From the IMG/VR virus record IMGVR_UViG_3300028364_000080, positions 1-35,911 of that record: a stretch of DNA of 35,911 bases. One strand, written 5' to 3'. This DNA comes from a virus. Positions 38 to 35,856 of this stretch are shown here, in pieces (the stretch's first letter is position 1; each line of letters opens with the position of its first letter). Made by a program: the position numbers and the translations under genes. Below the pieces are notes generated by a model that saw nothing but the letters and a program-made list of their open reading frames with translations, did no database searches and was not told the origin of the DNA.

Positions 38-88
38 TTATCCACAGGCTGTGGGTAAACTACCTAACCTGTGGATAACTTATCCACA
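38..88. other. Left-end DnaA-box cluster
   Basis: Three perfect matches to the DnaA box TTATCCACA lie at 38-46 (+), 70-78 (-) and 80-88 (+). A one-mismatch copy, TGTGGGTAA, lies at 50-58 (-). The pair at 70-88 forms a palindrome of two boxes around one base. T/G-rich direct repeats (TTTGG units) precede it at about 25-38. The cluster sits just upstream of the terminase genes and mirrors another cluster at the right edge. It could be part of a replication origin that becomes continuous on circularisation, or terminase binding sites beside cos. Confidence 0.75.
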
Positions 89-114
89 ACGCTTTTATTT
101 GGGAGGGTTGCTTT

Positions 115-561
115 ATGTCGAGGCCAGTTCATAATCCTGTTGGCAACCCTACTAAGTCTGTGCTACCTGCTGAGCCTAAGTCTGAGAACCTGGTCAAGCG
201 TGAGACTCCTCCGGTGCCTAGTGCGCTGGGCGTGATTGGCGCTGTGGTGTGGGCTGAGGTGTGGGAGGCTGGCGGGGATGCGTACCATCCTGCTACAGAC
301 AAGTACGTGATTGAGCGCTACGCTTCTCTTGTTGAAAGGCGCTCAGATTTTCTAGAGATTCTAGGCTGTGAGGGGTTCATTACTGAGGGTTCTCAGGGTC
401 AACAGGTGGCCCATCCTGCTGCTAAGCTGCTGGCCGATGTGGAGTCTAAAATGGTGGCACTTGAGGATCGACTAGGCTTGTCCCCTGAGGCTCGTTTGAG
501 GGTTGGTATTTCAGCGTTGGAGCACAAGAGTAAGTTTGATGCGTTCATGGATGACAACTAA
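115..561 (+). CDS. terS: Terminase small subunit (P27-like)
   Basis: 148 residues. The likely role is recognition of the packaging site and loading of the large terminase subunit. The C-terminal stretch around residues 115-135 (LGLSPEARLRVG) resembles the conserved end of P27-family small terminases, and the middle is helical with an N-terminal proline-rich tail. GGGAGG at 101-106 precedes the ATG by 8 bases. It is the first gene from the left edge, the usual place in cos phages. Unusually, it is separated from the large subunit by nrdJ. The assignment rests on motif resemblance and position, so it is good but not certain. Confidence 0.75.
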   Translation: MSRPVHNPVGNPTKSVLPAEPKSENLVKRETPPVPSALGVIGAVVWAEVWEAGGDAYHPATDKYVIERYASLVERRSDFLEILGCEGFITEGSQGQQVAHPAAKLLADVESKMVALEDRLGLSPEARLRVGISALEHKSKFDAFMDDN

Positions 562-757
562 ACCACTGCGTGTGGTATGTTCTAATATCAACACAGCTGC
601 TCATTTTGTTGCTTTGTGTCGATATAAGGTTTGCACAGAACTTCGCTACCGTTCTGTTGCATGTGGAGGGGTGAGCGGCTTAGCGTGCGTTTGTCGGTGA
701 ACGCATTAACCCTAGGTGTTAAGTGCGCTCCTCCTCCTGATTTTCTTCCAGTAAAAG

Positions 758-829
758 TTGCATATCGTGTTGGGGCCTGGTAGGCTCGTTTATCGTGCCT
801 ACACCAGTAGGTACGTCTATCTACTGTGT
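758..829 (+). promoter_or_regulatory. Possible promoter and hairpin leader of nrdJ
   Basis: Within the 282-base gap 562-843, TTGCAT (758-763) and TAGGCT (781-786) are 17 bases apart, a plausible but weak promoter. A hairpin pairs GTAGGC (780-785) with GCCTAC (797-802). A second pairs ACAC/AGTAG (801-810) with CTACT/GTGT (821-829), with one bulged C. The hairpins share bases 801-802, so full formation of both competes slightly. I could not recognise a B12-box or cobalamin riboswitch despite the downstream B12 enzyme. A shorter stem, TGCGTT/AACGCA, occurs near 687-706. Confidence 0.35.
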
Positions 830-843
830 AAAGAGGTTTTAGC

Positions 844-2787
844 ATGACTAAGTTCGGCCCTATTGGCAAAGAGGTTTATGAGCGTACGTACTCAAGGGTT
901 AAGCAAGATGGGACTTCTGAGCTATGGTCTGACACTGTGCGGCGTGTGGTTGACGGTAACATTGAGCTAGCGCCTGATGCCGTGTTTGATGGTGAGCGTG
1001 ATGCTCTGATTAATTTGATGGAAGATTTTAAGATTATACCTGCTGGTCGTCATTTGTGGGCTAGTGGGGCTAATACAAAGCTGGGTTTGTATAACTGCCA
1101 TAGAGCAGGTTGGGATGAGACGCTTAGTGGTCATTTCCTGTTTACGTTTGATCAGTTGATGCTTGGAGGTGGCGTTGGGGCTAACTACTCCTCGGAATAC
1201 CTGCAACGTGGACCAAAGGTGAGCAGTGCGGTCACTTTTGTGCCGTTTATGAGCGAAAAACACCCTGATTTTGAGTTTATGAAGGCTGATGTGATCGCTT
1301 TTGAGGGTAGTTTCTCCACTAATTACGTGGTTGAGGACTCTCGTGAGGGTTGGATTGAGGCCCTGAGGCTCGTAATTGAAGCTCACACGCTCGCTTACGA
1401 TAGCGTGGTTAGTGTGGATGTGTCCGGCGTTCGTGGTCGTGGGGTGCCCATTAGGGGCTTTGGTGGCATCGCTTCTGGGCCTGAACCTCTTGTGAGGATG
1501 CTTACTCTGGTTAATGACACGCTTAATGGTCTGGTCGGGCGGTACCTGACTCCATTGTCGGCTATGGAAATGGACCACAACATTGCATCCTGTGTCATCG
1601 CTGGCAACGTGAGGCGTTCTGCTCGCATGAGCATTCTGCATTGGCAGGATGCGGATATTCTTGATTTTATTGATTGTAAAAAGGATTCTGCTTTGCACTG
1701 GTCGACAAATATCAGTGTTGAGGTCGATGACGCCTACTTCGCTGCTGTGGCGGCTGACGACTATATGGCGTGTGCTGTTCGTGATGCGTTGGCTGAGGGT
1801 ATGTTCACTAATGGTGAGCCTGGTGTGTTCAATTCTTCTCTGGCTTCTGTGGGTGAGCGTGGTGACGTTCGTTCTACTAATCCTTGTGGTGAAATTGCGT
1901 TGGAGGAGTGGGAGCAGTGTTGTTTGGGTCACGTTAATCTGGCTGCTTACGTTGGCAACCACGCTGGCGCTAAAACGGCTTTTAACCTGATGACACGTTA
2001 CTTGATGCGTGCTACTCTCGCTGAGTCTTCTGATGCTCGTCAGGAGGCTGTGAAGGCGGCTAACAGGCGTATCGGGGTTGGGTTCTTTGGTTTTAATGAT
2101 TGGGCTGTGCTGCAGGGCTTTGCTTTTGATCGTATTCCGTATTCTGGAGATTTAGAGGGCATGTTGGGGGCTTACCGTGAGACTGTGGAGCGTGTTGCTC
2201 AGTCTTACGCTGTGGATCTAGGAATTAATGTGCCTGTGAAGACTACTACTGTTGCTCCTACTGGCAGTATTGCTAAGTTGCCTGGTGTGTCTGAGGGGCT
2301 TCAACCTCCTTACGCTAGGTACTTTATTAGGCGTGTTCGTTACGCTGCTAACGACCCTAGGTTGGAGGATTTGATTGTGCAGGGCTATGATGTTGAGCCG
2401 TGTGTTTACACTCCTAACACTGAGGTTGTTTCGTTTGTGTGCCGTGATACGCTCATGGACTATGCGCCTGCGTGGCTGGTTAAGCAGTCTGATGAGATTA
2501 GTTTGGAGTCCTACTTTGAAGTTCAGGCGTTTGTTCAGCGTGTTTGGGCTGATAATGCTTTGAGCATTACAGGTAATTTCTACCGTGAGGATACGTCAGT
2601 GGTTGAATTGGCGGATTTGCTCACTAAGTGGTTGCCGCTTGTGAAGGGGTTTACTGCTATGCCTGAGGATGGTCGTCCACAGTCTCCTTATGAGAGATTG
2701 ACGGCTGAAGAATATGAGGCTGCTGCTCATAAGAGCGTTGGGCAGGCTATGGATGATTGCGCTACTGGTGCTTGTCCTGTGAGATGA
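844..2787 (+). CDS. nrdJ: Adenosylcobalamin-dependent ribonucleotide reductase, class II monomeric
   Basis: 647 residues. It reduces ribonucleoside triphosphates to dNTPs using vitamin B12 (class II). All expected cysteines are visible and correctly spaced against the Lactobacillus leichmannii enzyme. C85 (YNCHRAG) and C359 form the active-site disulfide pair, C348 in NPCGEI is the thiyl radical cysteine, and C639/C644 (CATGACPVR) are the C-terminal shuttle pair. At 647 residues it is somewhat shorter than the roughly 740-residue model enzyme, yet looks intact. The start is the ATG after AAGAGG. It lies between the two terminase genes, an unusual place for a nucleotide metabolism gene, and has its own leader. 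Confidence 0.95.
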   Translation: MTKFGPIGKEVYERTYSRVKQDGTSELWSDTVRRVVDGNIELAPDAVFDGERDALINLMEDFKIIPAGRHLWASGANTKLGLYNCHRAGWDETLSGHFLFTFDQLMLGGGVGANYSSEYLQRGPKVSSAVTFVPFMSEKHPDFEFMKADVIAFEGSFSTNYVVEDSREGWIEALRLVIEAHTLAYDSVVSVDVSGVRGRGVPIRGFGGIASGPEPLVRMLTLVNDTLNGLVGRYLTPLSAMEMDHNIASCVIAGNVRRSARMSILHWQDADILDFIDCKKDSALHWSTNISVEVDDAYFAAVAADDYMACAVRDALAEGMFTNGEPGVFNSSLASVGERGDVRSTNPCGEIALEEWEQCCLGHVNLAAYVGNHAGAKTAFNLMTRYLMRATLAESSDARQEAVKAANRRIGVGFFGFNDWAVLQGFAFDRIPYSGDLEGMLGAYRETVERVAQSYAVDLGINVPVKTTTVAPTGSIAKLPGVSEGLQPPYARYFIRRVRYAANDPRLEDLIVQGYDVEPCVYTPNTEVVSFVCRDTLMDYAPAWLVKQSDEISLESYFEVQAFVQRVWADNALSITGNFYREDTSVVELADLLTKWLPLVKGFTAMPEDGRPQSPYERLTAEEYEAAAHKSVGQAMDDCATGACPVR

Positions 2788-2805
2788 TTCAGGAGGGTCG
2801 TCAGT

Positions 2806-4266
2806 ATGGTTAAACAATACGATTACCCTACTGATGGCCCTAGGGTCACTAAGTTTTGTCGAACCTTTCTAACCCTCAACGGCTCATTTGCAGGTCAGCC
2901 ATTTATTCCTTTGGAGTGGATGGAAGATGTGTTAGCGGACATGTTCAGGCTGGTGCCTTCTACAGGCATGCGTAAGCACAGAACGTATCTGCTGGGTGTA
3001 CCACGTAAGAATGCTAAGAGTACTCTGGGCGCAGCTATTGCTGTTTACATGCTAATTGCCGATAAGAGCGACAAGGCTCCTGTGATCATTTCTGCTGCTG
3101 GCGACCGTAAGCAGGCTCGTCTTGTGTTTGATATGGCTAAAGAGATGATCATGGCGTCCCCTGAGCTGAAAGAGCTTTGTTCTATATTTCGTGACGAGAT
3201 TAGGTGCAACCATAACGGCGGTATTTACAAGGCTGTGTCTGCTGATGCTGGTCTGGCGCATGGACTTAACCCTTCGTGTGTTATTGTGGATGAGTATCAT
3301 ATCCATAAAAACAAGGATCTTTACGTCGCATTGAACACTGGTTCTGCCATGCGTAATTCTCCTTTGACGCTGGTCATTTCTACTGCAGGGTTTGATGAGG
3401 AGGAGTCTCCTCTTGGTGAGTTGTATTCGTATGGCAGGCGTGTTCAATCTGGGGAGGTTGACGATTCAGCGTTCGGGATGACGTGGTATGGTCCTAGGGA
3501 GACTGAGGGCCTTGATTACCTAGATCCTGCTGTGTGGGCGGCTCATAACCCTTCGTGGGAGATTATGAATCACGATGAAATGGCAACTAGCGCCAAACAA
3601 ATGCCTGAGTCTGAGTTTGTAAGGTTCCGCCTTAACGGCTGGACGGCTACGGAAACGGCTTGGTTTGCTGCTGGCGTGTGGGAGGCTAGGGAAGATTCCA
3701 GTAAGGCTTTGGTGCCTGGTGACTTGATTGTGCTGGGCTTTGATGGCGCTTGGAAGGGAGATAGCACGGCACTTATTGGCGTGCGTATGTCTGACCTGCA
3801 CATTGAGGTTCTGGGGCATTGGGAGGCACCACCTGATTCTCCACATTGGCGTACGCCTGCTGAGGAGGTTGAGCAGACTATTCGTGATGCTGTTGGTAGG
3901 TTTGCTGTACGTGAGGTTGCTGCGGATCCTTACAGGTTTGAGCAGTCCCTACAGAGGCTTGCTTCTGAGGGCGTTCCTATTGTGGAGTTCAAATCTAACT
4001 CTTTGGCTCGTATGGTACCTGCTACTCAAGCCTTTTATGATGCCGTGATGGATAGTAAGTTGTCTCATAACGGTAATCCTGCTTTGGCCCGCCACGTTCG
4101 TAACGCTGTACTGAAGTCTGATCGACATGGAGCTAGGGTAACGAAGAATTACAAGAGTAGCAAGTCTCATATCGACTTAGCTATTGCGGCTGTTATTGGT
4201 TTGTCAAGAGCTGTTTCGTGGCGTGAGTCTGCTCCTGCTCCTGAAGCAGAAATGCTTATTTTGTAG
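2806..4266 (+). CDS. terL: Terminase large subunit
   Basis: 486 residues, the ATP-driven DNA translocase and nuclease that fills the head. The Walker A-type motif VPRKNAKST is at residues 65-73 and Walker B VIVDEYH at 159-165, with the ATPase in the N-terminal half. The C-terminal RNase H-like nuclease shows LGFDGAWKGD near residue 308 with later acidic sites (ADPYRFE; HIDLAIAA near 450). AGGAGG lies 11 bases before the ATG. It is of the Terminase_1/HK97-like group. It follows nrdJ by 18 bases and probably shares its transcript, so nrdJ expression may be tied to late packaging genes. Confidence 0.95.
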   Translation: MVKQYDYPTDGPRVTKFCRTFLTLNGSFAGQPFIPLEWMEDVLADMFRLVPSTGMRKHRTYLLGVPRKNAKSTLGAAIAVYMLIADKSDKAPVIISAAGDRKQARLVFDMAKEMIMASPELKELCSIFRDEIRCNHNGGIYKAVSADAGLAHGLNPSCVIVDEYHIHKNKDLYVALNTGSAMRNSPLTLVISTAGFDEEESPLGELYSYGRRVQSGEVDDSAFGMTWYGPRETEGLDYLDPAVWAAHNPSWEIMNHDEMATSAKQMPESEFVRFRLNGWTATETAWFAAGVWEAREDSSKALVPGDLIVLGFDGAWKGDSTALIGVRMSDLHIEVLGHWEAPPDSPHWRTPAEEVEQTIRDAVGRFAVREVAADPYRFEQSLQRLASEGVPIVEFKSNSLARMVPATQAFYDAVMDSKLSHNGNPALARHVRNAVLKSDRHGARVTKNYKSSKSHIDLAIAAVIGLSRAVSWRESAPAPEAEMLIL

Positions 4267-4275
4267 GAGGTTCGT

Positions 4276-7639: not shown

Positions 7640-7640
7640 T

Positions 7641-12396: not shown

Positions 12397-13263
12397 ATGG
12401 CTGCTGGTGATTTGATTACTGCTGATTGGGAAATGGAATATAAAGGGCTACTTATTGGTGGCGAATCTGCGTATTCCGTCTCTCAAATTGATGGTCTTAT
12501 CGATATGCCTGACATTGTAACTGGTGATCAGAGCAGGCTCAGGCGCCACGGTTTACGTGCTGGGGATGATTTCCTTAGTGGTCGACCTATTCAGCTTACC
12601 GTGGAGGTTTACGGGGCTGATGAAGGCACGTTTAATACCGCTATGGAAGCTATCAAATTGGCATTGCGACCTGGGCAACCTGAGGCGCCTTTGGTTATGC
12701 AACTCCCTGGTGTAGCTGGTGGCGCTAAGGTTCAGGTTAATGTTAGACCAAGACGGTTTAAGGTAGCCGTAGGCAGGGACTTCTATTACCGCATTCCTAA
12801 TATTGTGGTGGAGTTCTATTCTACTGATCCTAGGTTGTTCGCTAACGCTATCGGTTCTGATTCTGCTACTCTGCCTACAGCGGGCGGCGGTCTGTCGTTT
12901 AATGCGTCCCCCGACTTTTCGTTTGGTGCTACGTCTATTGGTGGGGAGTTGAATCTAACCAACGACGGAAACTTTCAGACTCCTGTTGTTTTCAGAATTG
13001 ATGGCCCTGTGCAGACTCCTAGGCTAATTCATAATGGGTTGGATAAGGAACTTAAAATCAACCTAAATCTTTTAGCAGGTGAGTTTCTGGTGGTTGATTC
13101 TGCTTCTAGGTCTGTGCTGCTTAATGGCACTGCGTCACGCTACCCTGCTTTAGTTGTTTCTGAGTGGTTTGACTTGGAGCCGGGCAACAATCAGATTTCA
13201 TTTAGAGGAGCCACTACGGCTGCTGGTTCGTGTACTGCTACTTTCCGTAGTGGTTGGGTTTAA
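12397..13263 (+). CDS. Distal tail protein (Dit-like)
   Basis: 288 residues. It likely forms the ring linking the tail tube to the tip. The N-terminal beta domain (MEYKGLLIGGESAYSVSQI, then DMPDIVTGDQSRLRRHGL, GDDFLSGRPIQLTVEVYG) and the FYYRIPNIVVEFYSTDPRLF segment match the siphovirus distal tail family in actinophages. The second half is a beta-sandwich ending in YPALVVSEWFDLEPGNNQIS. It directly follows the tape measure gene, as expected. Confidence 0.85.
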   Translation: MAAGDLITADWEMEYKGLLIGGESAYSVSQIDGLIDMPDIVTGDQSRLRRHGLRAGDDFLSGRPIQLTVEVYGADEGTFNTAMEAIKLALRPGQPEAPLVMQLPGVAGGAKVQVNVRPRRFKVAVGRDFYYRIPNIVVEFYSTDPRLFANAIGSDSATLPTAGGGLSFNASPDFSFGATSIGGELNLTNDGNFQTPVVFRIDGPVQTPRLIHNGLDKELKINLNLLAGEFLVVDSASRSVLLNGTASRYPALVVSEWFDLEPGNNQISFRGATTAAGSCTATFRSGWV

Positions 13264-13274
13264 GGAGAATATGT

Positions 13275-14303
13275 ATGACTGTTAAAAATCCAGCTTTGTA
13301 TCTACAAGCAGAGGCGCATCCTGCTGAGGATTTCCGTCATTTGGTATCTAAGGTGTATGGTGATCAACCTGGCGTGTTTGGCAATGGTATGGCTGTGACG
13401 CAAAATGCCACGCCAAACATGTCTGTTGACATTGCTGGTGGTAGCGTTCTGGTTGCGGGCACTGAGGCTACCTATCAAGGGCTGTACCTTTGTCACAATA
13501 GGGGCGCTACTAATTTGGTTGTGGCAGCTTCTGATGTGACAAACGCTAGGCGTGATTTGGTCGTTGCTCAGGTTGAGGACTCGGCTTACTCTGGTGCTGT
13601 TGATGCTTGGAAACTAGCTATCGTCACAGGTACTCCATCAGCAGGGGCCTTTCTGCCTGCTGTGCCTGCTAACTCACTTGTGTTGGCTACTATTCTGGTT
13701 GGTGCTAACGTCACTACTATTGTAAATGCTAACATCACAGATATTCGCAACAACACTCAAACCCATGGGCCTACTACGCTACGTAACCGTGGTCTTGCCC
13801 CTGCACCTGGTGTAATCGTTTGTAGGTCTAATAATCGACCTGAGTTCCCATTCATCGGCATGGAGATATACGAGACAGACAAGGGCTTGAAGTATATCTA
13901 CGATGGCACGGAGTGGAGGCTGATAGGTGGTCTGCCTGCATCTATTGTGAAGTCAGTAGTGGGTTCCACTGGGACAGTTACCACCTCAGAAGTTACTTTG
14001 GCAACGATCTCTCTTGAACCTGGCACTTGGATCATCTCGGGTTCAGCAACCCCCAATGCTTCTATTGCCCAAGATACTGAAGTTGTTCTTAGTCTGTTCG
14101 ATGCGGGTCTGGTTCGACGAACGTTCACTGCACACAACTACGACTTCGATTCTAGTAGTGCGCTGGGTCGAGCATCTCTTGCATTCACTTTCGTCTACGT
14201 CAATCCGTCAACTCAGAACTGGACATTGACCATTCGACGTACTCAAGCTGGTGGTTCGGTGTCTGTTTCCGGCGCTCACTTCGTCTGTCAGAGAATCGCC
14301 TGA
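13275..14303 (+). CDS. Minor tail / probable receptor-binding protein
   Basis: 342 residues. The first ~165 residues (AEDFRHLVSKVYGDQPGVF, then SVDIAGGSVLVAGTEATYQG, RRDLVVAQVEDS and ANITDIR) match the shared N-terminal part of actinophage upper baseplate/fibre proteins. A linker with KGLKYIYDGTEWRLIGGLP follows, then a C-terminal beta-rich head (GTVTTSEVTLATISLEPGTW onward) probably contacts the host. AAGGAG is 7 bases before the ATG at 13275. From about 13975 the codon choice shifts (CGA, TTC, TCA, GAC), suggesting the head domain was exchanged. Confidence 0.7.
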   Translation: MTVKNPALYLQAEAHPAEDFRHLVSKVYGDQPGVFGNGMAVTQNATPNMSVDIAGGSVLVAGTEATYQGLYLCHNRGATNLVVAASDVTNARRDLVVAQVEDSAYSGAVDAWKLAIVTGTPSAGAFLPAVPANSLVLATILVGANVTTIVNANITDIRNNTQTHGPTTLRNRGLAPAPGVIVCRSNNRPEFPFIGMEIYETDKGLKYIYDGTEWRLIGGLPASIVKSVVGSTGTVTTSEVTLATISLEPGTWIISGSATPNASIAQDTEVVLSLFDAGLVRRTFTAHNYDFDSSSALGRASLAFTFVYVNPSTQNWTLTIRRTQAGGSVSVSGAHFVCQRIA

Positions 14304-21148: not shown

Positions 21149-21185
21149 TCCTTAAACTTATTGGGAAACTATGAAAGAGGTGCTG

Positions 21186-23507
21186 ATGAAGCTTTCAGCC
21201 ATTGTGTCTGCTGTGGGTGGTGAGGTTGTTGTTGAGGGTGATGGGCTGCTGTTGTCTTGTCCTGCTCACGCTGACTCTCATCCTTCTCTCAGGTTGGATA
21301 TGAAGCCTGATGGTAAAGTTCTGCTTGCCTGTCGTGCTGGTTGTTCCATCCATGATGTGATGGCTCGTGCTGGTCTGGTGTTCGCTGATTTGTTTGATGT
21401 GGAGCTTGATATGGATGTGACTCCTGTGGTGTCCTCTTTGGGGGCGCCTGATGTTGCGTCTCGTGCTGTGATGGCTGGGGTTGTTGCTGATGCTCAAGCT
21501 GAGCTGAGGTCTGGTAACCCCGCTGCTGTAGCGGCGTTGGAGTACGCTGAGCGTAGGTTTGGTGTGTCGCCTATGAATGCGCTCAACCTGGGGCTTGGGG
21601 TGTCTAATGGCCGCCTGGTGGTGCCGTTCCTAGATCCTGGTGGGGTTGTGTCTGGCTACCAGGGGCGTGACATCACTGAGTCTCATCCTGTGCGTTGGTT
21701 GGGCCCTGCTAATCCTGCTGGTGGTGGTGGATGGGCTAAAGTTGGTTGGTTCAGTGGTGAGTATGATGAGGTTGTGATCACTGAAGGGCCAGGTGACGGA
21801 TTGACGGCTAGCGCCGTTGGTTACCCTGTAGCCATGATTCGTGGCGCTAAGCTGGCTGCTGGTGTGCTTGATGAGCTTGTTGAGGGGCTGAGGGGTCGAC
21901 CTGCTGTGGTGGCTGTTGACTCTGATGCTGCTGGTGTTCTGATGGCTAGCGTTCTCGCTGAGGGGCTGTACGCTGCTGGCGTTGCTGTGTTTGTAGTGCC
22001 TGTTCCGTTCGGTGCTGGTGATTTGAGCGAGGCGTACGAGTCTCATCCTGAGCAGTTCAAGAGTGAGTTTCCTTCTGCTGTGGCGTCTGCTGAGCGTTGG
22101 TACCCTCCTGCTGAGGATGCGCCTGAGGCTGATGGCTTCATTGATGTTACTCACTTGGGTATTGCGTGCGCCTTTGCTGATTGGCTTGGCGACTCAATCA
22201 AGTTCGTACCTTCTGTTGGGTTCCACGTGTACCGTAGTGGTGTGTGGGTTCCCGATGATATGCACCTAGTGCGTAGGCGCTTGCATGAGTTTCGAGATGA
22301 GTACCGTGCTCGCCATTCTGAGGCTGCTGCTCGTGCGTTCATGATGTTGGGTGACGGTTACGTGATCGGTCGTGTGATGACTGAGCTTGAGGCCGTGGTT
22401 GCTGTGCCGCTGGACATGTTTGACACTCACGCTGATAAGCTGGTTGTAGCTAATGGTGTTGTTGACCTGAGGTCTGGCGTGTTGTCCGAGCATGATCCGT
22501 CGTTGTTCATGACTAAGAAAGTGGATGTCCCTTATCATCCTGAAGTCATGTCTGAGCGTTGGACTGATTTCCTGGTGGACGTATTCCCTGATCATGATTC
22601 TCTGCGTAGCTATATGCAGCGTTTGATTGGGTATGGTATCACTGGTGAGACTAAGGAGCAGTGCTTTGGTGTGCTGTATGGTCGTGGGGCCAACGGCAAG
22701 TCTGTATTTACTGACACGCTGCGTGACGTGTTCTCTGGCATTGCTACTACCACTCCCTTCTCTACGTTTGAGGAGCGTGCTTCTGGCGGCATCCCTAACG
22801 ACATTGCGGCTCTTCGTGGCGCTCGTCTCGTGTTCGCTTCTGAGGGGGAGGCCGGGAAGCCTATGTCAGAAGCTGTGATCAAGAGTGTCACTGGGCAAGA
22901 CATGATCACGGCTAGGTTCATGCGTAAGGAGTTTTTCACTTTCAAACCTTCGTTCCTAATCCTGATGGCGTCTAACCATAAGCCTAGGTTTAGATCACAG
23001 GACGACGGGCTTTGGCGTAGGGTTAAGCTGATTCCCTGGCGTAGATTCTTTGCTCCTGATGAGCGTGACAAAGATATCTTTGTTAAAATGCAGCTTGAGG
23101 CTGTGGGAGTATTAACGTGGGCTGTTGAGGGAGCTAAGCTGTGGTATGAGTCTGGGTTGTCTGATCCTAATGTGGTGGTTGAAGCCACTGCTGGGTTCCG
23201 TGAGAACAGCGATCCTTTGGGCGGGTTCTTCCCTGAGGTGGTGATACCGCATCCTGGCTCTACTGTGCTTGGGTCTGAGGCTTACAAGGCGTATATTGAC
23301 TGGTGTGATCGTGAGGAACTACCTCCAAAATCTGTGTGGTCTCGTAAGGCGCTGTATGATGCACTTGAGGAGCGTGGAGTGGACCGAAAGAAAATGCGTG
23401 CTGGCGCTACTTTGTTGGACGTGAGGTTGCATTCTGTGCTGGATCGTGCTAGTGTGCTGCCTGAGCAGGATAGTCCTGCTGTTGAAGGGTTGGGAGATTT
23501 CAAATGA
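21186..23507 (+). CDS. Primase-helicase (CHC2/Toprim plus D5-type SF3 helicase)
   Basis: 773 residues. The zinc finger uses C25, H28, C49 and C53 (CPAHADSH then CRAGC). The Toprim primase core has E200 (ITEGPGDG) and D245/D247 (VDSDAAG). A D5_N-like linker follows, then an SF3 helicase with Walker A GRGANGKS (499-506), Walker B LVFASEGE and the sensor LMASNHKPRF. Together they would prime and unwind DNA at the fork. AGAGG at 21176-21180 is 5 bases before the ATG at 21186, preferred to the ATG at 21171. Overlaps the next gene by four bases. Confidence 0.92.
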   Translation: MKLSAIVSAVGGEVVVEGDGLLLSCPAHADSHPSLRLDMKPDGKVLLACRAGCSIHDVMARAGLVFADLFDVELDMDVTPVVSSLGAPDVASRAVMAGVVADAQAELRSGNPAAVAALEYAERRFGVSPMNALNLGLGVSNGRLVVPFLDPGGVVSGYQGRDITESHPVRWLGPANPAGGGGWAKVGWFSGEYDEVVITEGPGDGLTASAVGYPVAMIRGAKLAAGVLDELVEGLRGRPAVVAVDSDAAGVLMASVLAEGLYAAGVAVFVVPVPFGAGDLSEAYESHPEQFKSEFPSAVASAERWYPPAEDAPEADGFIDVTHLGIACAFADWLGDSIKFVPSVGFHVYRSGVWVPDDMHLVRRRLHEFRDEYRARHSEAAARAFMMLGDGYVIGRVMTELEAVVAVPLDMFDTHADKLVVANGVVDLRSGVLSEHDPSLFMTKKVDVPYHPEVMSERWTDFLVDVFPDHDSLRSYMQRLIGYGITGETKEQCFGVLYGRGANGKSVFTDTLRDVFSGIATTTPFSTFEERASGGIPNDIAALRGARLVFASEGEAGKPMSEAVIKSVTGQDMITARFMRKEFFTFKPSFLILMASNHKPRFRSQDDGLWRRVKLIPWRRFFAPDERDKDIFVKMQLEAVGVLTWAVEGAKLWYESGLSDPNVVVEATAGFRENSDPLGGFFPEVVIPHPGSTVLGSEAYKAYIDWCDREELPPKSVWSRKALYDALEERGVDRKKMRAGATLLDVRLHSVLDRASVLPEQDSPAVEGLGDFK

Positions 23508-23710
23508 GCGACATTAAGTATATCACTATTCCGTGCTGTGAGGTTGATGGAGATTTTATTACTGTTGCTCGCCATCCTGGTTACGATGGGGCTTCGATTG
23601 AGATTGAGATTTCTGTCACAGCCGATGGCCACGAATCTACTGTGCTGCTTAGTCCTGGTGCTGTTGCTGTTATCGTGGCTGCGTTCGCTGAGTGTATGGA
23701 TGAGTCCTGA
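23504..23710 (+). CDS. Small protein between primase and polymerase, unknown
   Basis: 68 residues, beginning MSDIKYITIPCCEVDGDFIT, with a beta-strand-like body and an end rich in Ala/Val (GAVAVIVAAFAECMDES). It overlaps the primase stop (ATGA) and the polymerase start (TGATG), so it is coupled to both replication proteins. No family recognised. An accessory role in replication is inferred only from position. Confidence 0.7.
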   Translation: MSDIKYITIPCCEVDGDFITVARHPGYDGASIEIEISVTADGHESTVLLSPGAVAVIVAAFAECMDES

Positions 23711-25500
23711 TGCGTGAGCTTAAGGTTGACTTCGCTGGCGTGTCACGACCTGTGTGCGTACCTGAGTCTGAGGAGGATGCTTTGTGGGCTACCAATCATT
23801 TGATGGCTGAGCCTGGAATTATTGCTCTAGACACTGAGACTACTGGGTTTGACATGTTCGCCGATGACTTCAAGGTTAGACTGGTTCAGTTTGGCACTCG
23901 TGACTACGCTTACGTGTTTGATGTAGCTAAGTTTGGTTCTGAGGTTGCTCAGTTGGTTGATGGGTTGCCGAGGCTGGTTATGCACAATGCTGCTTACGAC
24001 ATCAAGTGCTTGGTGGTGGGGTTGGGCGTTGGTACGGTAGCTGGGCTGTGGGCTAAAACTGTTGACACTCAGATTTTGGCTCACTTGGTCGACCCTAGAC
24101 AACTATCTGATGGGGGCGCTGGGCATAGCCTTAAGGGTCTTGCTGCTGCTTACATTGATGATGGCGCTGTTCACACCCAACAGGCGCTACACATGTGGGC
24201 CAAAGAGTTAGGTATTCCTAAGGATGACTTTTGGTCGCTGGTGCCGATTGATAATCAGCAATACTTGGAGTACGCTGGCGCTGACGTCATACTCACTTCG
24301 TGGGTTCTTGATGCGCTCAAGCCCTTGATGATTGCTGGCGGCTTCAAGAGGTTGTCTGCGTATGAGCATGAGGTTGCTCGTGTTTGCACTGAGATTGAGG
24401 TCACTGGTATGCTCGTTGATGTGCCGTACCTGAAGGGCGTGGGTGAAGTGCTGCTTGAGCGTGCTGAGGCTGGTAGGCGTATCGCTGCTGGGTATGGTGT
24501 GGACAACGTCAACAGCACAGCCCAAATAGCTACGGCTCTGATTGCACTGGGTTGCTTGCTTGAGCACAAGACGCCTAGCGGGAAGTGGCGTGTGAATGGT
24601 GAGGTGTTGGAGGGTATCATTTCGGCTGGTGGTCCAGCAGCGGTTTTGGCTAAAGCTGTGATGGACGCTAAGCAGGCGGGGTCGTTTGCTGCTAAGTATG
24701 TTGATGGCGTGATAGCCAAGGTAGACGCTACGTCTAAGGTGCATGCGTCTATCCGTTCGCTTGGCGCTCGTACAGGGCGCATGAGTGTATCTGATCCTCC
24801 TTTGCACCAGTTGCCTGCTGCTGATTCTGAGATTCGTACGGGGTTCGTAGCGGCTCCTGGTTGGGTTATCGGTGCTACCGACTCTGATCAGGTTGAACTT
24901 AGGGTGCTGGCTGCTCTGAGTGGTGATAGGGTGATGATTGATGCCATCAACTCTGGCGTGGATCTTCACACCCTCACTGCTGAGTCTGCCGGTGTGTCTA
25001 GGAAGATCGGCAAGACGGCTAATTTCCTGGTGGTGTATGGTGGTGGTGCTGCTAAGCTGAGCGCTACCGCTGGCATTCCTTTGAGTGTTGCTAAGCGTGT
25101 GCTGGCGTCATTCTGGACTACTTACCCTGGTGTCAAGCGCTACAAGAACAAGCTTCAAAGCAGGTGCGAGAACGGTAGCAGAAACTTAGTCACACCTACT
25201 GGACGTAGGCTGATCATGGATCGTGATAGAGGATACGCTTCTTTGAACCATATGATTCAAAGTACCGCACGTGACGTGCTGGGGATGGGCGTTCTGCGGG
25301 CTGATGAAAGGGGTGTGACGCCTAACATGCTGATGCTGGTTCATGATGAAATTATTTGGACTGCTCGTGAGGAGGATGCTGATCGCATTGCTAAGGTTTT
25401 CAAAGAATGTTTGACGTTTGAGGATTTCCTTGGTTCGGGTGTTACACTGAGTGCTGGTTCGGAAGTCTATGGAGAAAGTTGGGGTGCTGGTTATGTTTGA
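23710..25500 (+). CDS. polA: DNA polymerase I (family A) with 3'-5' exonuclease
   Basis: 596 residues. The N-terminal proofreading domain has D41/E43 (ALDTETTG), D97 (HNAAYD) and Y188/D192 (YAGAD). The polymerase domain has motif A DSDQVELR with D391, motif B R431 and K435 (RKIGKTANFLVVYG) and motif C VHDE with D546. The 5'-3' exonuclease domain is absent, as in most phage family A enzymes. It starts inside the previous stop codon. It probably copies the genome with the primase-helicase encoded upstream. Confidence 0.95.
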   Translation: MRELKVDFAGVSRPVCVPESEEDALWATNHLMAEPGIIALDTETTGFDMFADDFKVRLVQFGTRDYAYVFDVAKFGSEVAQLVDGLPRLVMHNAAYDIKCLVVGLGVGTVAGLWAKTVDTQILAHLVDPRQLSDGGAGHSLKGLAAAYIDDGAVHTQQALHMWAKELGIPKDDFWSLVPIDNQQYLEYAGADVILTSWVLDALKPLMIAGGFKRLSAYEHEVARVCTEIEVTGMLVDVPYLKGVGEVLLERAEAGRRIAAGYGVDNVNSTAQIATALIALGCLLEHKTPSGKWRVNGEVLEGIISAGGPAAVLAKAVMDAKQAGSFAAKYVDGVIAKVDATSKVHASIRSLGARTGRMSVSDPPLHQLPAADSEIRTGFVAAPGWVIGATDSDQVELRVLAALSGDRVMIDAINSGVDLHTLTAESAGVSRKIGKTANFLVVYGGGAAKLSATAGIPLSVAKRVLASFWTTYPGVKRYKNKLQSRCENGSRNLVTPTGRRLIMDRDRGYASLNHMIQSTARDVLGMGVLRADERGVTPNMLMLVHDEIIWTAREEDADRIAKVFKECLTFEDFLGSGVTLSAGSEVYGESWGAGYV

Positions 25501-28049: not shown

Positions 28050-28958
28050 ATGCCGATGTTCGCCAATAATGCCGAAAAGTCAAACGCTCTTGATTTGGCC
28101 CTTGACGCTGGCGCCCTGTTCGATGTCCACACTGAGCCTTTGCAGGCTGGCGGCTACGTGCCAACCATTGAGGATGGCGTCTACGCTGGACAACCTGAGA
28201 AAATTGTACACTACCGTACGCTTGCTGATGGTAGTGTGAAGGTGCTGAACGTGGCCCACCCTTCTCATCCTTCCAGCAACTACTTGCAGGTGCTTGAGAC
28301 TGCTGAGGCGCTGTTCCCTGATTCCACCACAAAGGTGATGTCCCTTGATGGTGGCTCACGTCTTATGTTCACTCAGGAGATTGGTTCTGAGGTTGACTTG
28401 GGTGGTGGTGATGTGGTTCGTCCAAACCTGATGTGGACGGCTTCGCTTGACTCATCCTGGTCCACTGGTGCTCATGGTCTGGCTGATCGTTGGTTCTGCA
28501 CGAACCAAATGCCGCTGGCTAAGTGTCACCTGAAGGTTCGCCGTACGCTGAACCACGATATCAACCTGGGTAGCAAGTCCGCTATCCTGGCTACTGTGAT
28601 GGGTCGCTTCAACGAGTTTGTGTCTGACGTTTCCACACTGCGTCATATCAGTGTCACGGCTCGCCAGTTCTCTGAGATGCTTGGCGCCCTGATTCCTGCT
28701 CCTGAGGCTGATGCTCACGGCAAGACTGTGAACGCCTATGAGAAGCGGGTTGCAGCGGTCAAGTACTACTTTGGTGAGGAGTCCGATGGCCCTGCTGCTG
28801 GAACGGCTTGGGCGGCTTACAACGCCATCCAGTCTGCTGAGCTTCATACCTTTACTGAAGGTAAGAACCAGGATCGTAAGCAGGCTGAGATTGTGTCTGA
28901 GGACAAGCACCAGAACATGTCTCGTGCTGCTGGTCCGCTGCTCCTGGCGTTGGCCTAG
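28050..28958 (+). CDS. DUF932 / TIGR03299-type phage-plasmid protein
   Basis: 302 residues. The pattern NALDLALDAG, FDVHTEPLQAGGYVP, VVHY-like KIVHYRTLADG, later GSRLMFTQEIGSEVDL and STGAHGLADRWFCTNQMPLA resembles DUF932 proteins common in actinophages and plasmids. Their biochemical role is unknown. It has its own promoter, 5' hairpin, AGGAGG RBS and a strong terminator, and uses more C-ending codons (AAC, TTC, TCC), suggesting high expression. Possible host-takeover or anti-defence functions are speculation. Confidence 0.8.
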   Translation: MPMFANNAEKSNALDLALDAGALFDVHTEPLQAGGYVPTIEDGVYAGQPEKIVHYRTLADGSVKVLNVAHPSHPSSNYLQVLETAEALFPDSTTKVMSLDGGSRLMFTQEIGSEVDLGGGDVVRPNLMWTASLDSSWSTGAHGLADRWFCTNQMPLAKCHLKVRRTLNHDINLGSKSAILATVMGRFNEFVSDVSTLRHISVTARQFSEMLGALIPAPEADAHGKTVNAYEKRVAAVKYYFGEESDGPAAGTAWAAYNAIQSAELHTFTEGKNQDRKQAEIVSEDKHQNMSRAAGPLLLALA

Positions 28959-28974
28959 AAAGAAAACGAAAGAA

Positions 28975-29008
28975 ACTTGGGATTGGGGGTTGCGTCCCCA
29001 TCCCAAGT
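28975..29008 (+). terminator. Terminator after DUF932 gene
   Basis: ACTTGGGATTGGGG (28975-28988) pairs with CCCCATCCCAAGT (28996-29008), one bulged T, with a 7-base loop, followed by GTGCTTTACTT. It is 16 bases after the stop codon. Confidence 0.8.
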
Positions 29009-29064
29009 GTGCTTTACTTAACACATCGGCAACAACGCCGATCCGAGGCCCTAGGAGGCCAGCA

Positions 29065-29511
29065 ATGTTCAACACCAACATTAGCGAGAAGCACAACCTC
29101 AACCAATTGGGCATGATGTCTAGCATACCTGAAGGGTTCCACCGACACCCCACAGGTGGTGGTCTGGTTGCTGACACAGCCACGGTATCCGACACCGCCT
29201 ATGTGGGTCCCCTCGCCGTGATCTCAGGCTACGCCGTGGTCTCAGGCTGCGCTCGGGTAAGCGGCAACGCTGTGGTCTCAGGCTACGCCGTGGTCTCAGG
29301 CGAAGCCGAGGTCGCATGCTACGCTGAGGTCTCAGGCTACGCTCGGGTATCAGGCTACGCCGTGGTCACAGGCTACGCTCGGGTATCAGGCTACGCTGAG
29401 GTCTCAGGCTACGCCGTGGTCACAGGCTACGCTCGGGTAAGCGGCAACGCCTTGGTCTCAGGTGACGCTCGGGTCTCAGGTGACGCTCGGGTCACTGGTG
29501 TGATCCGATGA
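29065..29511 (+). CDS. Hexapeptide-repeat (left-handed beta-helix) protein, copy 1
   Basis: 148 residues. After a unique 17-residue start (MFNTNISEKHNLNQLGM) and the shared MSSIPEGFHRHPTGGG, the rest is 19 hexads of the form VSGYA(V/R/E), matching the left-handed beta-helix rule (Ile/Val at position one, small residues inside). Three hexads per turn would give about 6 coils. AGGAGG lies 6 bases before the ATG. The end VTGVIR is shared with copy 3. Phage proteins with such repeats are widespread but without established function. A stalk, adhesin or DNA-mimic role is open. Confidence 0.75.
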   Translation: MFNTNISEKHNLNQLGMMSSIPEGFHRHPTGGGLVADTATVSDTAYVGPLAVISGYAVVSGCARVSGNAVVSGYAVVSGEAEVACYAEVSGYARVSGYAVVTGYARVSGYAEVSGYAVVTGYARVSGNALVSGDARVSGDARVTGVIR

Positions 29512-29942
29512 CGTCTAGCATACCGGAAGGGTACCATCAACACCCCACAGGCGGCGGCCTGGTCGCTGACACAGCCACGGTATCCAACACAGCCTATGTG
29601 GGTCACCTCGCTGTGGTCACAGGCAGCGCTGTGGTCTCAGACTACGCTCGGGTATCAGGCTACGCTCGGGTATCAGGCTACGCCGTGGTCTCAGGCTACG
29701 CCGTGATCTCAGGCAACGCCGTGATCTCAGGCTACGCCGAGGTCTCAGGCTACGCCGTGATCTCAGGCCACGCCATGGTCTCAGGCTACGCCGTGATCTC
29801 AGACGAAGTCGAGGTCTCAGGCAACGCCGAGGTCACAGGCGACGCCGTGATCTCAGGCAACGCCGAGGTTTTTGGTAACGCCGAAGTCTCAGGATACGCC
29901 GTGGTCTCAGACTACGCCGTGGTCACTGGTGTGCTCCGATGA
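29508..29942 (+). CDS. Hexapeptide-repeat protein, copy 2
   Basis: 144 residues, starting MTSSIPEGYHQHPTGGGLVA, then 21 hexads, many ISGNAV/VSGYAE, ending VTGVLR. It overlaps copy 1 by four bases and copy 3 by four bases (ATGA), so the three are translationally coupled. There are more Ile and acidic turns than in its paralogues (EVEVSG, NAEVTG), so the charged face differs. The start is followed by the same conserved module as in copies 1 and 3. Confidence 0.78.
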   Translation: MTSSIPEGYHQHPTGGGLVADTATVSNTAYVGHLAVVTGSAVVSDYARVSGYARVSGYAVVSGYAVISGNAVISGYAEVSGYAVISGHAMVSGYAVISDEVEVSGNAEVTGDAVISGNAEVFGNAEVSGYAVVSDYAVVTGVLR

Positions 29943-30355
29943 TGTCTAGCATACCTGAAGGGTTCCATCGACACCCCACAGGCGGTGGCCTGGTCGCTGA
30001 CACAGCCACGGTATCCAACACAGCCTATGTGGGTCCCCTCGCTGTGGTCTCAGGTAACGCCGTGGTCGCAGGCTACGCTCGGGTAAGCGGCAACGCTGTG
30101 GTCACAGGCAGCGCTGTGGTCTCAGGCTACGCTGAGGTCTCAGACGACACTCGGGTATCAGGCTACGCTGTGGTCTCAGGCTACGCTGTGGTCACAGGCT
30201 ACGCTGTGGTCTCAGGCTACGCTCGGGTAAGCGGCAGCGCCGTGGTCTCAGACAACGCTGTGGTCTCAGGATACGCCAAGGTCTCAGCCTACGCTCGGGT
30301 AATCGGCAACGACCTGGTCTCAGGCTACGCACTGGTCACCGGTGTGATCCGATGA
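29939..30355 (+). CDS. Hexapeptide-repeat protein, copy 3
   Basis: 138 residues, starting MMSSIPEGFHRHPTGGGLVA and then 20 hexads ending VTGVIR. The first ~36 residues are nearly identical to those of copies 1 and 2, also at DNA level, while repeats in the body vary in number and charge (VSGYAR, VSDNAV, VSAYAR). It overlaps copy 2 and a vestigial fourth start (ATGATGTCTAGC, 30352) by four bases. Confidence 0.78.
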   Translation: MMSSIPEGFHRHPTGGGLVADTATVSNTAYVGPLAVVSGNAVVAGYARVSGNAVVTGSAVVSGYAEVSDDTRVSGYAVVSGYAVVTGYAVVSGYARVSGSAVVSDNAVVSGYAKVSAYARVIGNDLVSGYALVTGVIR

Positions 30356-30840: not shown

Positions 30841-30863
30841 TTTGATACGGAGGCTTACATGCC

Positions 30864-32514: not shown

Positions 32515-32834
32515 CGGTAGAAGACGATTACGAGTTCCAGTATGAGGACAACGACAACATTACAAGGCTCATGTCTAGGCGCTCAGAGCTTAATACTCTG
32601 ATGAGCACCATGCATGCCGCTATGCGTGCCATCGCTGCTGATACGGCTACCGTGCTTAGGGCACATGCTGCTGGCGATGAGGATGCACGCTACCGCCTTT
32701 GGAATGAGGCTGAGGAGAATCAGCAAACTCTGCTGCTTCTGGGACGTAAGTTCTATCAGGTTGAGCAAGAATTAGCCTGGCTCAACAACTATGCTAGTCG
32801 ATACGCCGTGGATGATGAGGAGAATCAAGAATGA
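32511..32834 (+). CDS. Helical coiled-coil protein, unknown
   Basis: 107 residues, predicted all-helical: RLMSRRSELNTLMSTMHAAM, then DARYRLWNEAEENQQTLLLL and FYQVEQELAWLNNYASRY. Acidic start and end. It overlaps the zinc-ribbon-like gene and the kinase gene by four bases each, so is part of one operon. No family recognised. Confidence 0.65.
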   Translation: MTVEDDYEFQYEDNDNITRLMSRRSELNTLMSTMHAAMRAIAADTATVLRAHAAGDEDARYRLWNEAEENQQTLLLLGRKFYQVEQELAWLNNYASRYAVDDEENQE

Positions 32835-33394: not shown

Positions 33395-33395
33395 A

Positions 33396-33542
33396 ATGAC
33401 TGATCCTAGCGTACCTCCTCATACAACGGGGATTTATGAGTTGAGTGAGATTGCGCACACAGGCGCTGCTACAGGCGATCTAATCTTGATCGCTCTAGCG
33501 TTCGCTATTGTTGGCATGCTGCTACTACTGACGGCCAAGTGA
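33396..33542 (+). CDS. Small single-helix membrane protein
   Basis: 48 residues. N-terminal polar part (MTDPSVPPHTTGIYELSEIA) and one C-terminal helix LILIALAFAIVGMLLLLTAK. An AGGGAG-like RBS lies just upstream. Its TGA overlaps the next ATG (TGATG). Probably tail-anchored in the host membrane. No family recognised. Confidence 0.65.
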   Translation: MTDPSVPPHTTGIYELSEIAHTGAATGDLILIALAFAIVGMLLLLTAK

Positions 33543-34081
33543 TGAATGAGGATGAGTACTGGGTGCTAAAAGACTCCCCTGCTGCTACGTTCGGGTATGC
33601 TAGTGAGCAGGCGTCTTATGCTGATTTTAGGTTCTGCGGAGGCAAAGACGGCTGTGGTGGATGGTTGCATGTGTCTGAGTTTAAGCAGGGAAACTCCACC
33701 ACACGTAAAAGGCTTGTGCAGTCCATATGTCGTGCGTGTGAAAGGCGCATAGGCAACCCTGGGCGTAAGGAGGGCGTATGGAAGAGCAGATTAAAGGGCT
33801 ATGGGATGTCACCTGATGAGTACAACATGATGCTTGAGAGTCAAGGCGGAACCTGTGCTATTCCTAGTTGCTCTAAGGATGCAGCGTCAGAGGGAAGGAG
33901 ATTGGCGGTAGACCATTGTCATAGAAAAGAGGCTGAGCTGAAAAAAGCTCGAAAACGTGTAAAAGGGGTTGTGCGAGGTCTTTTGTGTGCTCACCACAAT
34001 CTAATACTGGGTAACTGTGGTGACACTGCTGAGAGTGTGCAGGAGCTAGCCGACTACCTTTGGAGGTTTGAAAAATCATGA
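33542..34081 (+). CDS. Recombination endonuclease VII family
   Basis: 179 residues. The C-terminal half matches the endonuclease VII domain (PF02945): YGMSPDEYNMMLESQGGTCA, LAVDHCHR, VRGLLCAHHNLILGNCGDTA and VQELADYL, with the zinc cysteines and the catalytic DHC. The N-terminal half has a Cys-pair segment (FCGGKDGCGGWL, SICRACERR), often found with this domain. It resolves branched DNA before packaging. Overlaps the genes on both sides. Confidence 0.9.
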   Translation: MNEDEYWVLKDSPAATFGYASEQASYADFRFCGGKDGCGGWLHVSEFKQGNSTTRKRLVQSICRACERRIGNPGRKEGVWKSRLKGYGMSPDEYNMMLESQGGTCAIPSCSKDAASEGRRLAVDHCHRKEAELKKARKRVKGVVRGLLCAHHNLILGNCGDTAESVQELADYLWRFEKS

Positions 34082-34200
34082 AATGCCTTATTGTAGAACA
34101 AGGTGGGCCATTGTTGACGGGGTTAAGCAGCATTTTGCAGATTGAGGAGAAAATGCAAGATTCTGCTTGTGTTTCCGATGGTGTGGTGTATGATGGCTAG
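34078..34200 (+). CDS. Very small hypothetical protein
   Basis: 40 residues starting MKCLIVEQGGPLLTGLSSIL. The ATGA overlap with the endonuclease VII stop supports coupled translation. The codon pattern is average, the sequence is not recognised, and the gene after it overlaps by 11 bases. May be real but weakly supported. Confidence 0.4.
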   Translation: MKCLIVEQGGPLLTGLSSILQIEEKMQDSACVSDGVVYDG

Positions 34201-34462
34201 GCGCAAAAGCGTTGCTCCTGTGAATGAGTTCCCTGAGCACTGGTTGGTAGAGCCAGAGGTGAAGATCGCTGGTAAAGCGCTTCTGACTAAGGGCGCTGAG
34301 TTTAAAGTGGCTGGTGTGGTCGGCAAATGCCGATTTAGGCACTTCGTGACTAATCAGAGTTCAGGTGAGCAATGGATTGAGTGTTTTGATCGGCATGGGG
34401 CCTACAGGGCCTTTGATTGTGCTCGTGTGAAGACGGTACATAGACCAAAGAAAAGGAGCTAA
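34190..34462 (+). CDS. Small basic beta-type protein, unknown
   Basis: 90 residues from the ATG at 34190 (or 34193). The body contains APVNEFPEHWLVEPEVKIAG, GAEFKVAGVVGKCRFRHFVT and the basic end VKTVHRPKKRS, suggesting a small beta-barrel nucleic-acid binding protein. This is inference only. RBS is weak. Confidence 0.6.
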   Translation: MMARRKSVAPVNEFPEHWLVEPEVKIAGKALLTKGAEFKVAGVVGKCRFRHFVTNQSSGEQWIECFDRHGAYRAFDCARVKTVHRPKKRS

Positions 34463-34464
34463 TT

Positions 34465-34620
34465 ATGGGTGTTATTTACGGTTATATGCTTACTGTGGTA
34501 GGCGCTCTGGCAATCGGCTATTTGCTTGATAAGCGTGCTGAGCGGCGGTACAGGGAGTTTGAGGAGTTCAATGATGCTTGGGCCTACCACGCAGACCTGT
34601 GGGAAGAGCGCTACTTTTAA
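34465..34620 (+). CDS. Small membrane-anchored protein
   Basis: 51 residues: one N-terminal helix (MGVIYGYMLTVVGALAIGYL), then a charged cytoplasmic helix DKRAERRYREFEEF and an aromatic end. AAGGAG (34453-34458) is 6 bases before the ATG. Last gene before the repeated promoter element. No family recognised. Confidence 0.7.
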   Translation: MGVIYGYMLTVVGALAIGYLLDKRAERRYREFEEFNDAWAYHADLWEERYF

Positions 34621-34643
34621 ACGCAGTATTATGGGCATAAACG

Positions 34644-34682
34644 TATAATAATTGGTACTGCTGAGTGGTAACTAAGTAAGAG
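34644..34682 (+). promoter_or_regulatory. Promoter/leader element, copy 2
   Basis: TATAAT (34644-34649) is followed after nine bases by the 24-base block 34659-34682, identical to 18943-18966. The ACGTATAA part upstream is also shared. The block contains TAACTAAGTAAG with stops in all three frames. No -35 is clear. It sits 98 bases before the HNH gene pair. Confidence 0.7.
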
Positions 34683-34732
34683 AGAGAATATGCACAGTCT
34701 GATCCTAATAGCGCCTTACGTCTACGTATAGA

Positions 34733-34765
34733 GCTAGAGTACTCGTTAAGAGGGTTGGCTCTAGC
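34733..34765 (+). promoter_or_regulatory. Leader hairpin before first HNH gene
   Basis: GCTAGAG (34733-34739) pairs with CTCTAGC (34759-34765) around a 19-base loop. AGGAGG follows one base later and lies 7 bases before the ATG at 34780, so folding could influence ribosome access. Confidence 0.45.
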
Positions 34766-34779
34766 CAGGAGGCTACAGG

Positions 34780-35127
34780 ATGACGCTACCGCAACCGTGT
34801 TTAGAGACAGGCTGTATGGTGCTATCCTATGATGGTAGGTCTAGGTGTGCTGCTCACACTAAGGCTAGGGGCGCTGCTAAGAACGCTAAGAGGCGTAATG
34901 GTGGGGGTGAGCGTGCCCAAGCTCGCATGAGGTACAGGCTTAAGAGCCTAGATGCTTCTGTGTGCTGGCTGTGTAGGATTGAGTTTAGAGCTTCTGCACT
35001 GCAAGTAGACCATATTCTAGCTTTGGCTGATGGTGGAGTCGATACAGAGTCTAATTTGCAAGTTCTCTGCAAGCCATGCCACGACAATAAGTCTGCTGAT
35101 GAGAATAAGAGGAGAAGGGCTTACTGA
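34780..35127 (+). CDS. HNH endonuclease near genome end
   Basis: 115 residues. The HNH core is CWLCRIEFRASALQVDHILA, followed by LADGGVDTESNLQVLCKPCH and DNKS. N-terminal cysteines (CLETGC, CAAH) may hold a second metal. This type of HNH protein is often encoded next to terminase genes and is needed for cos cleavage in several phages. Across the joined ends it would lie just upstream of terS. AGGAGG RBS. Overlaps the next gene by one base (TGATG). Confidence 0.88.
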   Translation: MTLPQPCLETGCMVLSYDGRSRCAAHTKARGAAKNAKRRNGGGERAQARMRYRLKSLDASVCWLCRIEFRASALQVDHILALADGGVDTESNLQVLCKPCHDNKSADENKRRRAY

Positions 35128-35747
35128 TGCCTACTGTGTCTGTTGAAGCTAAAAAGCGCCAACGTGAGCGAGCTAGTGCTAGTCGTAAGGCTAGGCGTCT
35201 GAGTGATCCCGTGTGGGCTGAGGCTGAGCGTAAGCGGGCTAGGTACAACTATGAACGTAAGCGTGAGTTTAAGAAGTGCCCTATTCTTCATCCTCCTAAG
35301 CCTAAGCCTGTAAAGGTGTATATTCGTAGGTTATGCGGTTGGCGTGAGTGTGTGAACATATTTGAGCCTAAGGGTAGTAGGACTGTTAACTGCTCTAAGG
35401 AGTGTGGTAAACGTAGCGACAAGCAGAAATATCGTGAGTCTGAGGCCGGGCGGTTGTACCAGTACAACCGTAAGCATGCTATGCGTGCTATGATGCAGGC
35501 TGCTGATGTGGATGTGACTGCTAAGGGCAAACGTGATATACTTGACAAGTATGGTGGCTCTTGTGTTTACTGTGGGGTACTGGTGGCGGGGGGCTTGGAG
35601 TGGGATCACGAGACGCCTATTGCACGTGGCGGTAAGCACATGTTAGCTAATCTTGTGCCGTCTTGTGTGTGGTGTAACAGGAGCAAGAGCAGTAAGGCTT
35701 TGAGTGTGTGGCTTGTTGATGAGGGGTGCACCAGTCCGCCGCTGTAA
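35127..35747 (+). CDS. Second HNH endonuclease with long basic N-terminus
   Basis: 206 residues. Residues 1-60 are highly basic (KKRQRERASASRKARRLS, KRARYNYERKREFKKC). A Cys-containing middle (RLCGWRECVNIF, NCSKECGKR) could bind zinc. The C-terminal HNH motif is CVYCGVLVAGGLEWDHETPI, then LANLVPSCVWCNRSKSSK. It is the last gene before the right-end DnaA-box cluster. Together with the preceding HNH gene it may be part of the packaging or homing apparatus. Confidence 0.85.
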   Translation: MPTVSVEAKKRQRERASASRKARRLSDPVWAEAERKRARYNYERKREFKKCPILHPPKPKPVKVYIRRLCGWRECVNIFEPKGSRTVNCSKECGKRSDKQKYRESEAGRLYQYNRKHAMRAMMQAADVDVTAKGKRDILDKYGGSCVYCGVLVAGGLEWDHETPIARGGKHMLANLVPSCVWCNRSKSSKALSVWLVDEGCTSPPL

Positions 35748-35782
35748 CTGCAACAGCGTTCGTAGTTGTAGTGTGGTCTGGC

Positions 35783-35856
35783 TGGGGATAACTTTCTAAG
35801 TGCTATCCACACCCCCACCTGTAGCCTGTGGATAACTTAAGGCGCTCTGTGGATAA
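35783..35856. other. Right-end DnaA-box cluster
   Basis: Perfect DnaA boxes in minus orientation (TGTGGATAA) lie at 35827-35835 and 35848-35856. One-mismatch copies are at 35783-35791 (TGGGGATAA, -) and 35803-35811 (CTATCCACA, +). GGGTAGA tandem repeats follow at about 35861-35880. If the edges join, these and the left cluster form one origin-like region of about 220 bases. Confidence 0.75.

Follow-up and report, generated by a model that had tools for sequence, protein, structure and literature searches.

Perfect DnaA boxes are confined to the two ends of a 35,911-nt viral genome (IMG/VR record IMGVR_UViG_3300028364_000080, the whole of which is called the window here), where each terminal non-coding arm carries four perfect or one-mismatch boxes and where the left end is common to a second contig. 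The reading favoured here, tentatively, is that the two arms form a host-DnaA-dependent or DnaA-assisted origin assembled on the circularised genome; that such an origin works only after circularisation is plausible and unproven. On this reading, the window would be the packaged DNA of a phiC31-like phage that has cohesive ends. After injection, the ends would anneal and be ligated, giving one intergenic region with all eight boxes between the genes for an HNH endonuclease and the terminase small subunit (TerS). Host DnaA would bind this cluster and open it or bend it toward opening, and the phage primase/helicase and PolA-type DNA polymerase would then load there and start replication. The terminase would later cut the concatemer inside the same region, at a putative cos site whose overhang sequence was not seen, and the outcome would be half an origin at each end of every packaged genome. 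In such a scheme, DnaA may perform the strand opening that initiator-bearing phages carry out themselves.

Table 1. Terminal arms, DnaA boxes and main genes of the window.
Feature	Coordinates	Strand	Basis
Left terminal non-coding arm, putative cos end to TerS start	1..114		second contig begins at base 1
Perfect DnaA box (TTATCCACA)	38..46	+	motif scan
One-mismatch DnaA box (TTACCCACA)	50..58	-	motif scan
Perfect DnaA box, inverted pair with 80-88 (TGTGGATAACTTATCCACA)	70..78	-	motif scan
Perfect DnaA box	80..88	+	motif scan
Terminase small subunit (TerS)	115..561	+	phrog_83, E 5e-18
Ribonucleotide reductase, between TerS and TerL	844..2787	+	phrog_367, E 1e-199
Terminase large subunit (TerL), about 50% identical to phiC31 gp33	2806..4266	+	profile match and comparison
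DNA primase/helicase	21171..23507	+	profile match
PolA-type DNA polymerase	23710..25500	+	profile match
HNH endonuclease	34780..35127	+	profile match
HNH endonuclease adjoining the right end	35127..35747	+	profile match
Right terminal non-coding arm, HNH stop to putative cos end; GGGTAGA repeats just past the last box	35748..35911		
One-mismatch DnaA box (TTATCCCCA)	35783..35791	-	motif scan
One-mismatch DnaA box (CTATCCACA)	35803..35811	+	motif scan
Perfect DnaA box	35827..35835	-	motif scan
Perfect DnaA box	35848..35856	-	motif scan

Regarding the boxes themselves, a scan of the whole window recovered exactly five perfect copies of TTATCCACA, which all fall in its first 88 or its last 85 nt, and these, together with the three one-mismatch copies beside them, lie precisely where the preliminary description had placed them. 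Its further remark that none occur elsewhere holds for the perfect boxes and fails for the one-mismatch copies, 16 more of which are scattered over the window, many of them being TCATCCACA or TGATCCACA. Copies with no or one mismatch number 24 in total, compared with 7.9 +/- 2.7 in dinucleotide shuffles. Exact copies averaged 0.31 per genome in 400 first-order Markov simulations (maximum 3), and never did more than one fall within 226 nt of the circularised genome. Once the coding tandem repeats at 29.2-30.3 kb are set aside, TTATCCACA alone among the most clustered 9-mers listed reaches five copies in a 300-nt stretch. Chance was rejected as the source of the end cluster on the motif scan and the simulations, and the 9/9 match in five copies makes it very likely that the end boxes are DnaA sites.

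The window has the appearance of a whole phiC31-like phage genome with cohesive ends. Its genes, which run in one direction, encode TerS, a ribonucleotide reductase, the terminase large subunit (TerL), the portal and structural proteins, an exonuclease, a RusA-like resolvase, a primase-helicase, PolA, a sigma-like protein and HNH endonucleases. The identity between TerL and phiC31 gp33 extends across 96% of the protein and the TerL relatives located inside bacterial genomes are those of Streptomyces and Amycolatopsis; therefore, the host is probably actinobacterial. The window has in common with the phiC31-like phages (Lomovskayavirus: phiC31, Shawty, TG1 and BT1) the left-end order of TerS, TerL, portal, protease and capsid, an HNH gene near the right end, and genes for an exonuclease, a primase and a DNA polymerase. 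Unlike in these phages, the ribonucleotide reductase gene splits TerS from TerL, which are neighbours in Shawty and are separated only by gp32 in phiC31. In addition, phiC31 and Shawty encode a serine integrase, whereas no integrase-like protein was seen among the scanned genes of the window, and the ORFs of more than 350 aa outside that scan sit in the structural block. The likeness is thus one of structural genes and layout and does not amount to full membership of the group.

The proposal that the edges of the window are physical termini stood up at the left edge, and at the right edge it is synteny and layout that point the same way. A second contig, IMGVR_UViG_3300012147_000158 (17,329 bp), starts exactly at window base 1 and has five differences from the window, which all lie between 16281 and 16948. 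The annotated ends of phiC31 and its kin fall in the same gene interval, between the right-end HNH gene and TerS. Because two contigs, from samples that are possibly related, stop at one base and the annotated end of phiC31 lies there as well, the left edge is taken to be a physical terminus. In phiC31 and Shawty, TerS lies 132-144 nt from the left end and the HNH gene 45-55 nt from the right end, which is comparable with the 114 and 164 nt of the window. A second contig carrying the right end was looked for and none was found. The window has no terminal repeat, and no direct repeat joins its ends, which would fit 3' overhangs that were lost in library preparation.

When the edges are joined, the HNH stop and the TerS start are separated by 278 nt, to which any overhang bases would add, compared with 189 nt in phiC31, and the eight boxes occupy 217 nt without overhang bases. 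The start-to-start spacings of the boxes across the joint are 20, 24, 21, 101 (over the junction), 12, 20 and 10 nt, and the spacings of 10 to 24 nt are for the most part close to one or two turns of the helix. Several boxes have common flanks beyond the 9-mer, and GTTATCCACAGGCT in the left arm is an exact 14-nt inverted match of AGCCTGTGGATAAC in the right arm. As single-stranded DNA, the left arm forms strong hairpins and folds far better than its shuffles (z -5.0). No clear AT-rich unwinding element is present over the joint, where 40-nt windows are 40-65% AT; actinobacterial origins may be less AT-rich. The GC skew of the window is positive throughout and so are its gene directions, and the skew therefore says nothing about an origin. 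DnaA-trio repeats in GTAGGGTAGAGGGTAGAGGG were considered as a candidate and dropped, as by eye its TAG units, at distances of 5 and 7 nt, are out of register.

Unlike the window, the phiC31-like phages have ends without DnaA boxes. No DnaA-box cluster was found in ten TerL relatives (L012-L021, 48-64% identity; searched in the stretch around TerL) or in phiC31, phiPsal1, Shawty, DrManhattan and Tallboi, and looser TTNTNCACA clusters were absent from these as well. Relatives without boxes, which had been set down in advance as counting against the proposal, thus do exist, at 36-52% TerL divergence, the compared set consisting of these divergent relatives. As the annotated primase and DNA polymerase of phiC31 are placed as in the window and phiC31 has no boxes, such a replication module can evidently work without them. 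The lack of clusters in these relatives indicates that the boxes are special to the lineage of the window, or to the DnaA box of its host.

DnaA-box clusters are also found beside the terminase genes of other phages. The inverted pair TGTGGATAA N0-25 TTATCCACA is present in at least 120 viral-contig stretches, and a reversed-motif control in 72 stretches of the whole collection. One sample consisted of 50 contigs with the inverted pair, 22 of them with a Pfam TerL, and the pair lay 0.6-1.9 kb 5' of TerL in 15 of the 22. A second sample was selected by the presence of three direct boxes, with positions in partial contigs derived from offsets; here the cluster lay no more than 2.6 kb 5' of TerL in 17 of 24 contigs. 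Neither TerL-bearing sample (22 and 24 contigs) contained a cluster 3' of TerL within 0.6-2.6 kb. Clustering of TerL at 30% identity collapses both samples to 16 families, and clusters near the terminase are present in about 6 of these, compared with 2.0 expected for random positions (P about 0.007). The reversed motif was itself near the terminase in 4 of 14 contigs and 3 of 10 families, suggesting that part of the association probably reflects the non-coding DNA upstream of terminase genes. The control and the family-level count together weakened the first impression, 32 of 46 contigs becoming 6 of 16 families; the association is present in several lineages and is modest when counted by lineage.

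Some of the contigs have arrangements of their own. In a related group of four (L030, L034, L111 and L124), an HNH gene separates TerL from an inverted DnaA-box pair with a conserved spacer, which lies about 1 kb upstream. The viral contig L080 contains 23 perfect boxes in less than 500 nt (12862-13347), nearly all in one direction. Five inverted repeats of the type TGTGGATAA...GTAACCTAGCGTTAC...TTATCCACA are spread along one 99-kb contig (L066 / G046), and an identical or near-identical copy of this repeat occurs in G008.

The best-sampled lineage with clusters (21 contigs; 36-kb genome), that of G055 and G061, is unrelated to the window, its TerL being placed in a different cluster when the proteins are grouped at 30% identity. 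In this lineage, as in the window, the terminase genes are immediately preceded by DnaA boxes, mostly four to nine of them, and a phage PolA and primase-helicase are encoded, the latter being DnaB-like in G061. Unlike in the window, the genes diverge from the cluster, the GC skew changes sign there, and the cluster is unsplit. In eight contigs (G055, G061, G078, G060, G025, G077, G033 and G015), the majority of those that can be judged, the cumulative GC skew reaches its minimum at the cluster or no more than about 150 nt away, and wherever the sequence extends to both sides of the cluster, the skew is negative to one side and positive to the other. In G061, the cluster is inside a 221-nt terminal repeat, with the skew minimum at base 60 and boxes at 61-166. 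The minimum misses the cluster by 0.5-2.4 kb in G079, G091, G057 and G081, and it lies away from the cluster in G007, G028, G029, G043 and G066, which represent the other lineages examined. Transcription could cause the skew pattern, as most contigs of the supporting lineage also have a switch in gene direction at the cluster. The occurrence of DnaA clusters at the GC-skew minimum in an unrelated lineage lends support, by analogy, to an origin assembled by circularisation. G061 is a complete-looking 36-kb phage, with seven DnaA boxes in its terminal repeat (1-221 of L375 and the right end of L376).

The origin is favoured as an explanation because five 9/9 boxes stand at the ends of the window where 0.3 would be expected in the whole of it, and because of the evidence for physical ends, the helical-turn spacings, the excess of inverted pairs over the reversed motif, the position of clusters 5' of TerL and the skew minima at the clusters of the G055 and G061 lineage. 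It is weakened by the box-free phiC31-like relatives, the lack of a clear AT-rich element, the uninformative skew of the window, the modest association per lineage, and the skew minima that lie off the cluster in other lineages and in four contigs of the supporting lineage. Part of this evidence would suit boxes that bind DnaA without starting replication, either titrating it from the chromosome or controlling the late (terminase and structural) operon upstream of TerS, which we consider unlikely. In several lineages the cluster immediately precedes the terminase operon, at the place expected of a late promoter, and the box-free relatives still have a primase and polymerase; for titration, copy number alone suffices, as is established for datA in E. 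coli. However, titration leaves the confinement of the boxes to the termini unexplained. Counting against late control is a promoter scan that, omitting actinobacterial and phage-sigma promoters, gave no sigma-70-like match at 1-900 and a sole one in 35100-35911, inside the HNH gene.

The position of the boxes on both sides of the putative cos is what would be expected of cos-site elements, that is, cosB-like sites for TerS or sites at which DnaA acts as a host packaging co-factor, in the way that IHF serves at lambda cos. The short repeats of phiC31 (AACGACCC), located between the left end and TerS in the same place as the window boxes, and the common flanks noted above agree with such a role. 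It is nevertheless quite improbable, as five exact matches to the DnaA consensus would not be expected of a TerS site and the same 9-mer is used by unrelated lineages with other terminases; in addition, we know of no precedent for a packaging role of DnaA. A role in DNA entry is suggested by the folding of the left arm and by a T5-type phage that has a matching box pair at 19-35 in its terminal repeat_region, since repeats, palindromes and DnaA boxes are among the features of the proposed T5 injection stop signal (PMC13250531). Such a role is very doubtful here: nothing suggests two-step entry, and a stop at the extreme tips, where the boxes lie, would block nearly the whole genome. Finally, the inverted pair at 70-88, followed by TTTTAT, might mainly be a terminator ahead of TerS with the other boxes incidental, and TGTGGATAACTTATCCACA plus ACGCTTTTAT was indeed scored as a terminator-like site. 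This is most unlikely, as it would account for two boxes at most, leaving six outside the hairpin, and the stem has only three G-C pairs and would end 26 nt ahead of the TerS start.

Regarding known systems, the DnaA-dependent origins of plasmids and phage-plasmids, such as P1 oriR, contain closely packed consensus DnaA boxes in non-coding DNA, as seen in the window. Unlike these origins, the window has no recognised phage-initiator iterons and no clear AT-rich element, and its cluster is split by the genome ends. The T5-type terminal repeats also have DnaA boxes near the physical ends of linear virion DNA, but these are situated in a long terminal repeat, which the window lacks, and are discussed within the injection stop signal (PMC13250531). 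Literature combining phage DnaA boxes with cos, terminase, GC skew or origins, as far as it is accessible mostly outside subscription journals, yielded no description of a DnaA cluster divided by packaging ends. DnaA boxes in phages as such are already known. To our knowledge, replication start in actinobacterial phages is poorly known. If the origin on the circularised genome is real, DnaA is the host protein involved and a 217-nt stretch is its target, both open to direct tests, and a single site would couple circularisation with replication start and packaging. A stronger form of the proposal, possible although on the unlikely side, is that packaging cuts a host-DnaA origin in two, so that it would be inactive in linear virion DNA and switched on by circularisation, and, more broadly, that clusters beside the terminase start may represent a recurrent origin type in phages with their own helicase-primase and polymerase and no initiator. 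The survey thus raises, for many uncultured phages, the question of whether terminase-adjoining DnaA-box clusters mark origins.

Elsewhere in the window, three consecutive ORFs at 28951-30355 contain hexapeptide-like repeats (VSGYAVVSGYARVSG...) with an 18-nt period in the DNA and a raised local GC content (58%), and they look like recently duplicated beta-helix proteins.
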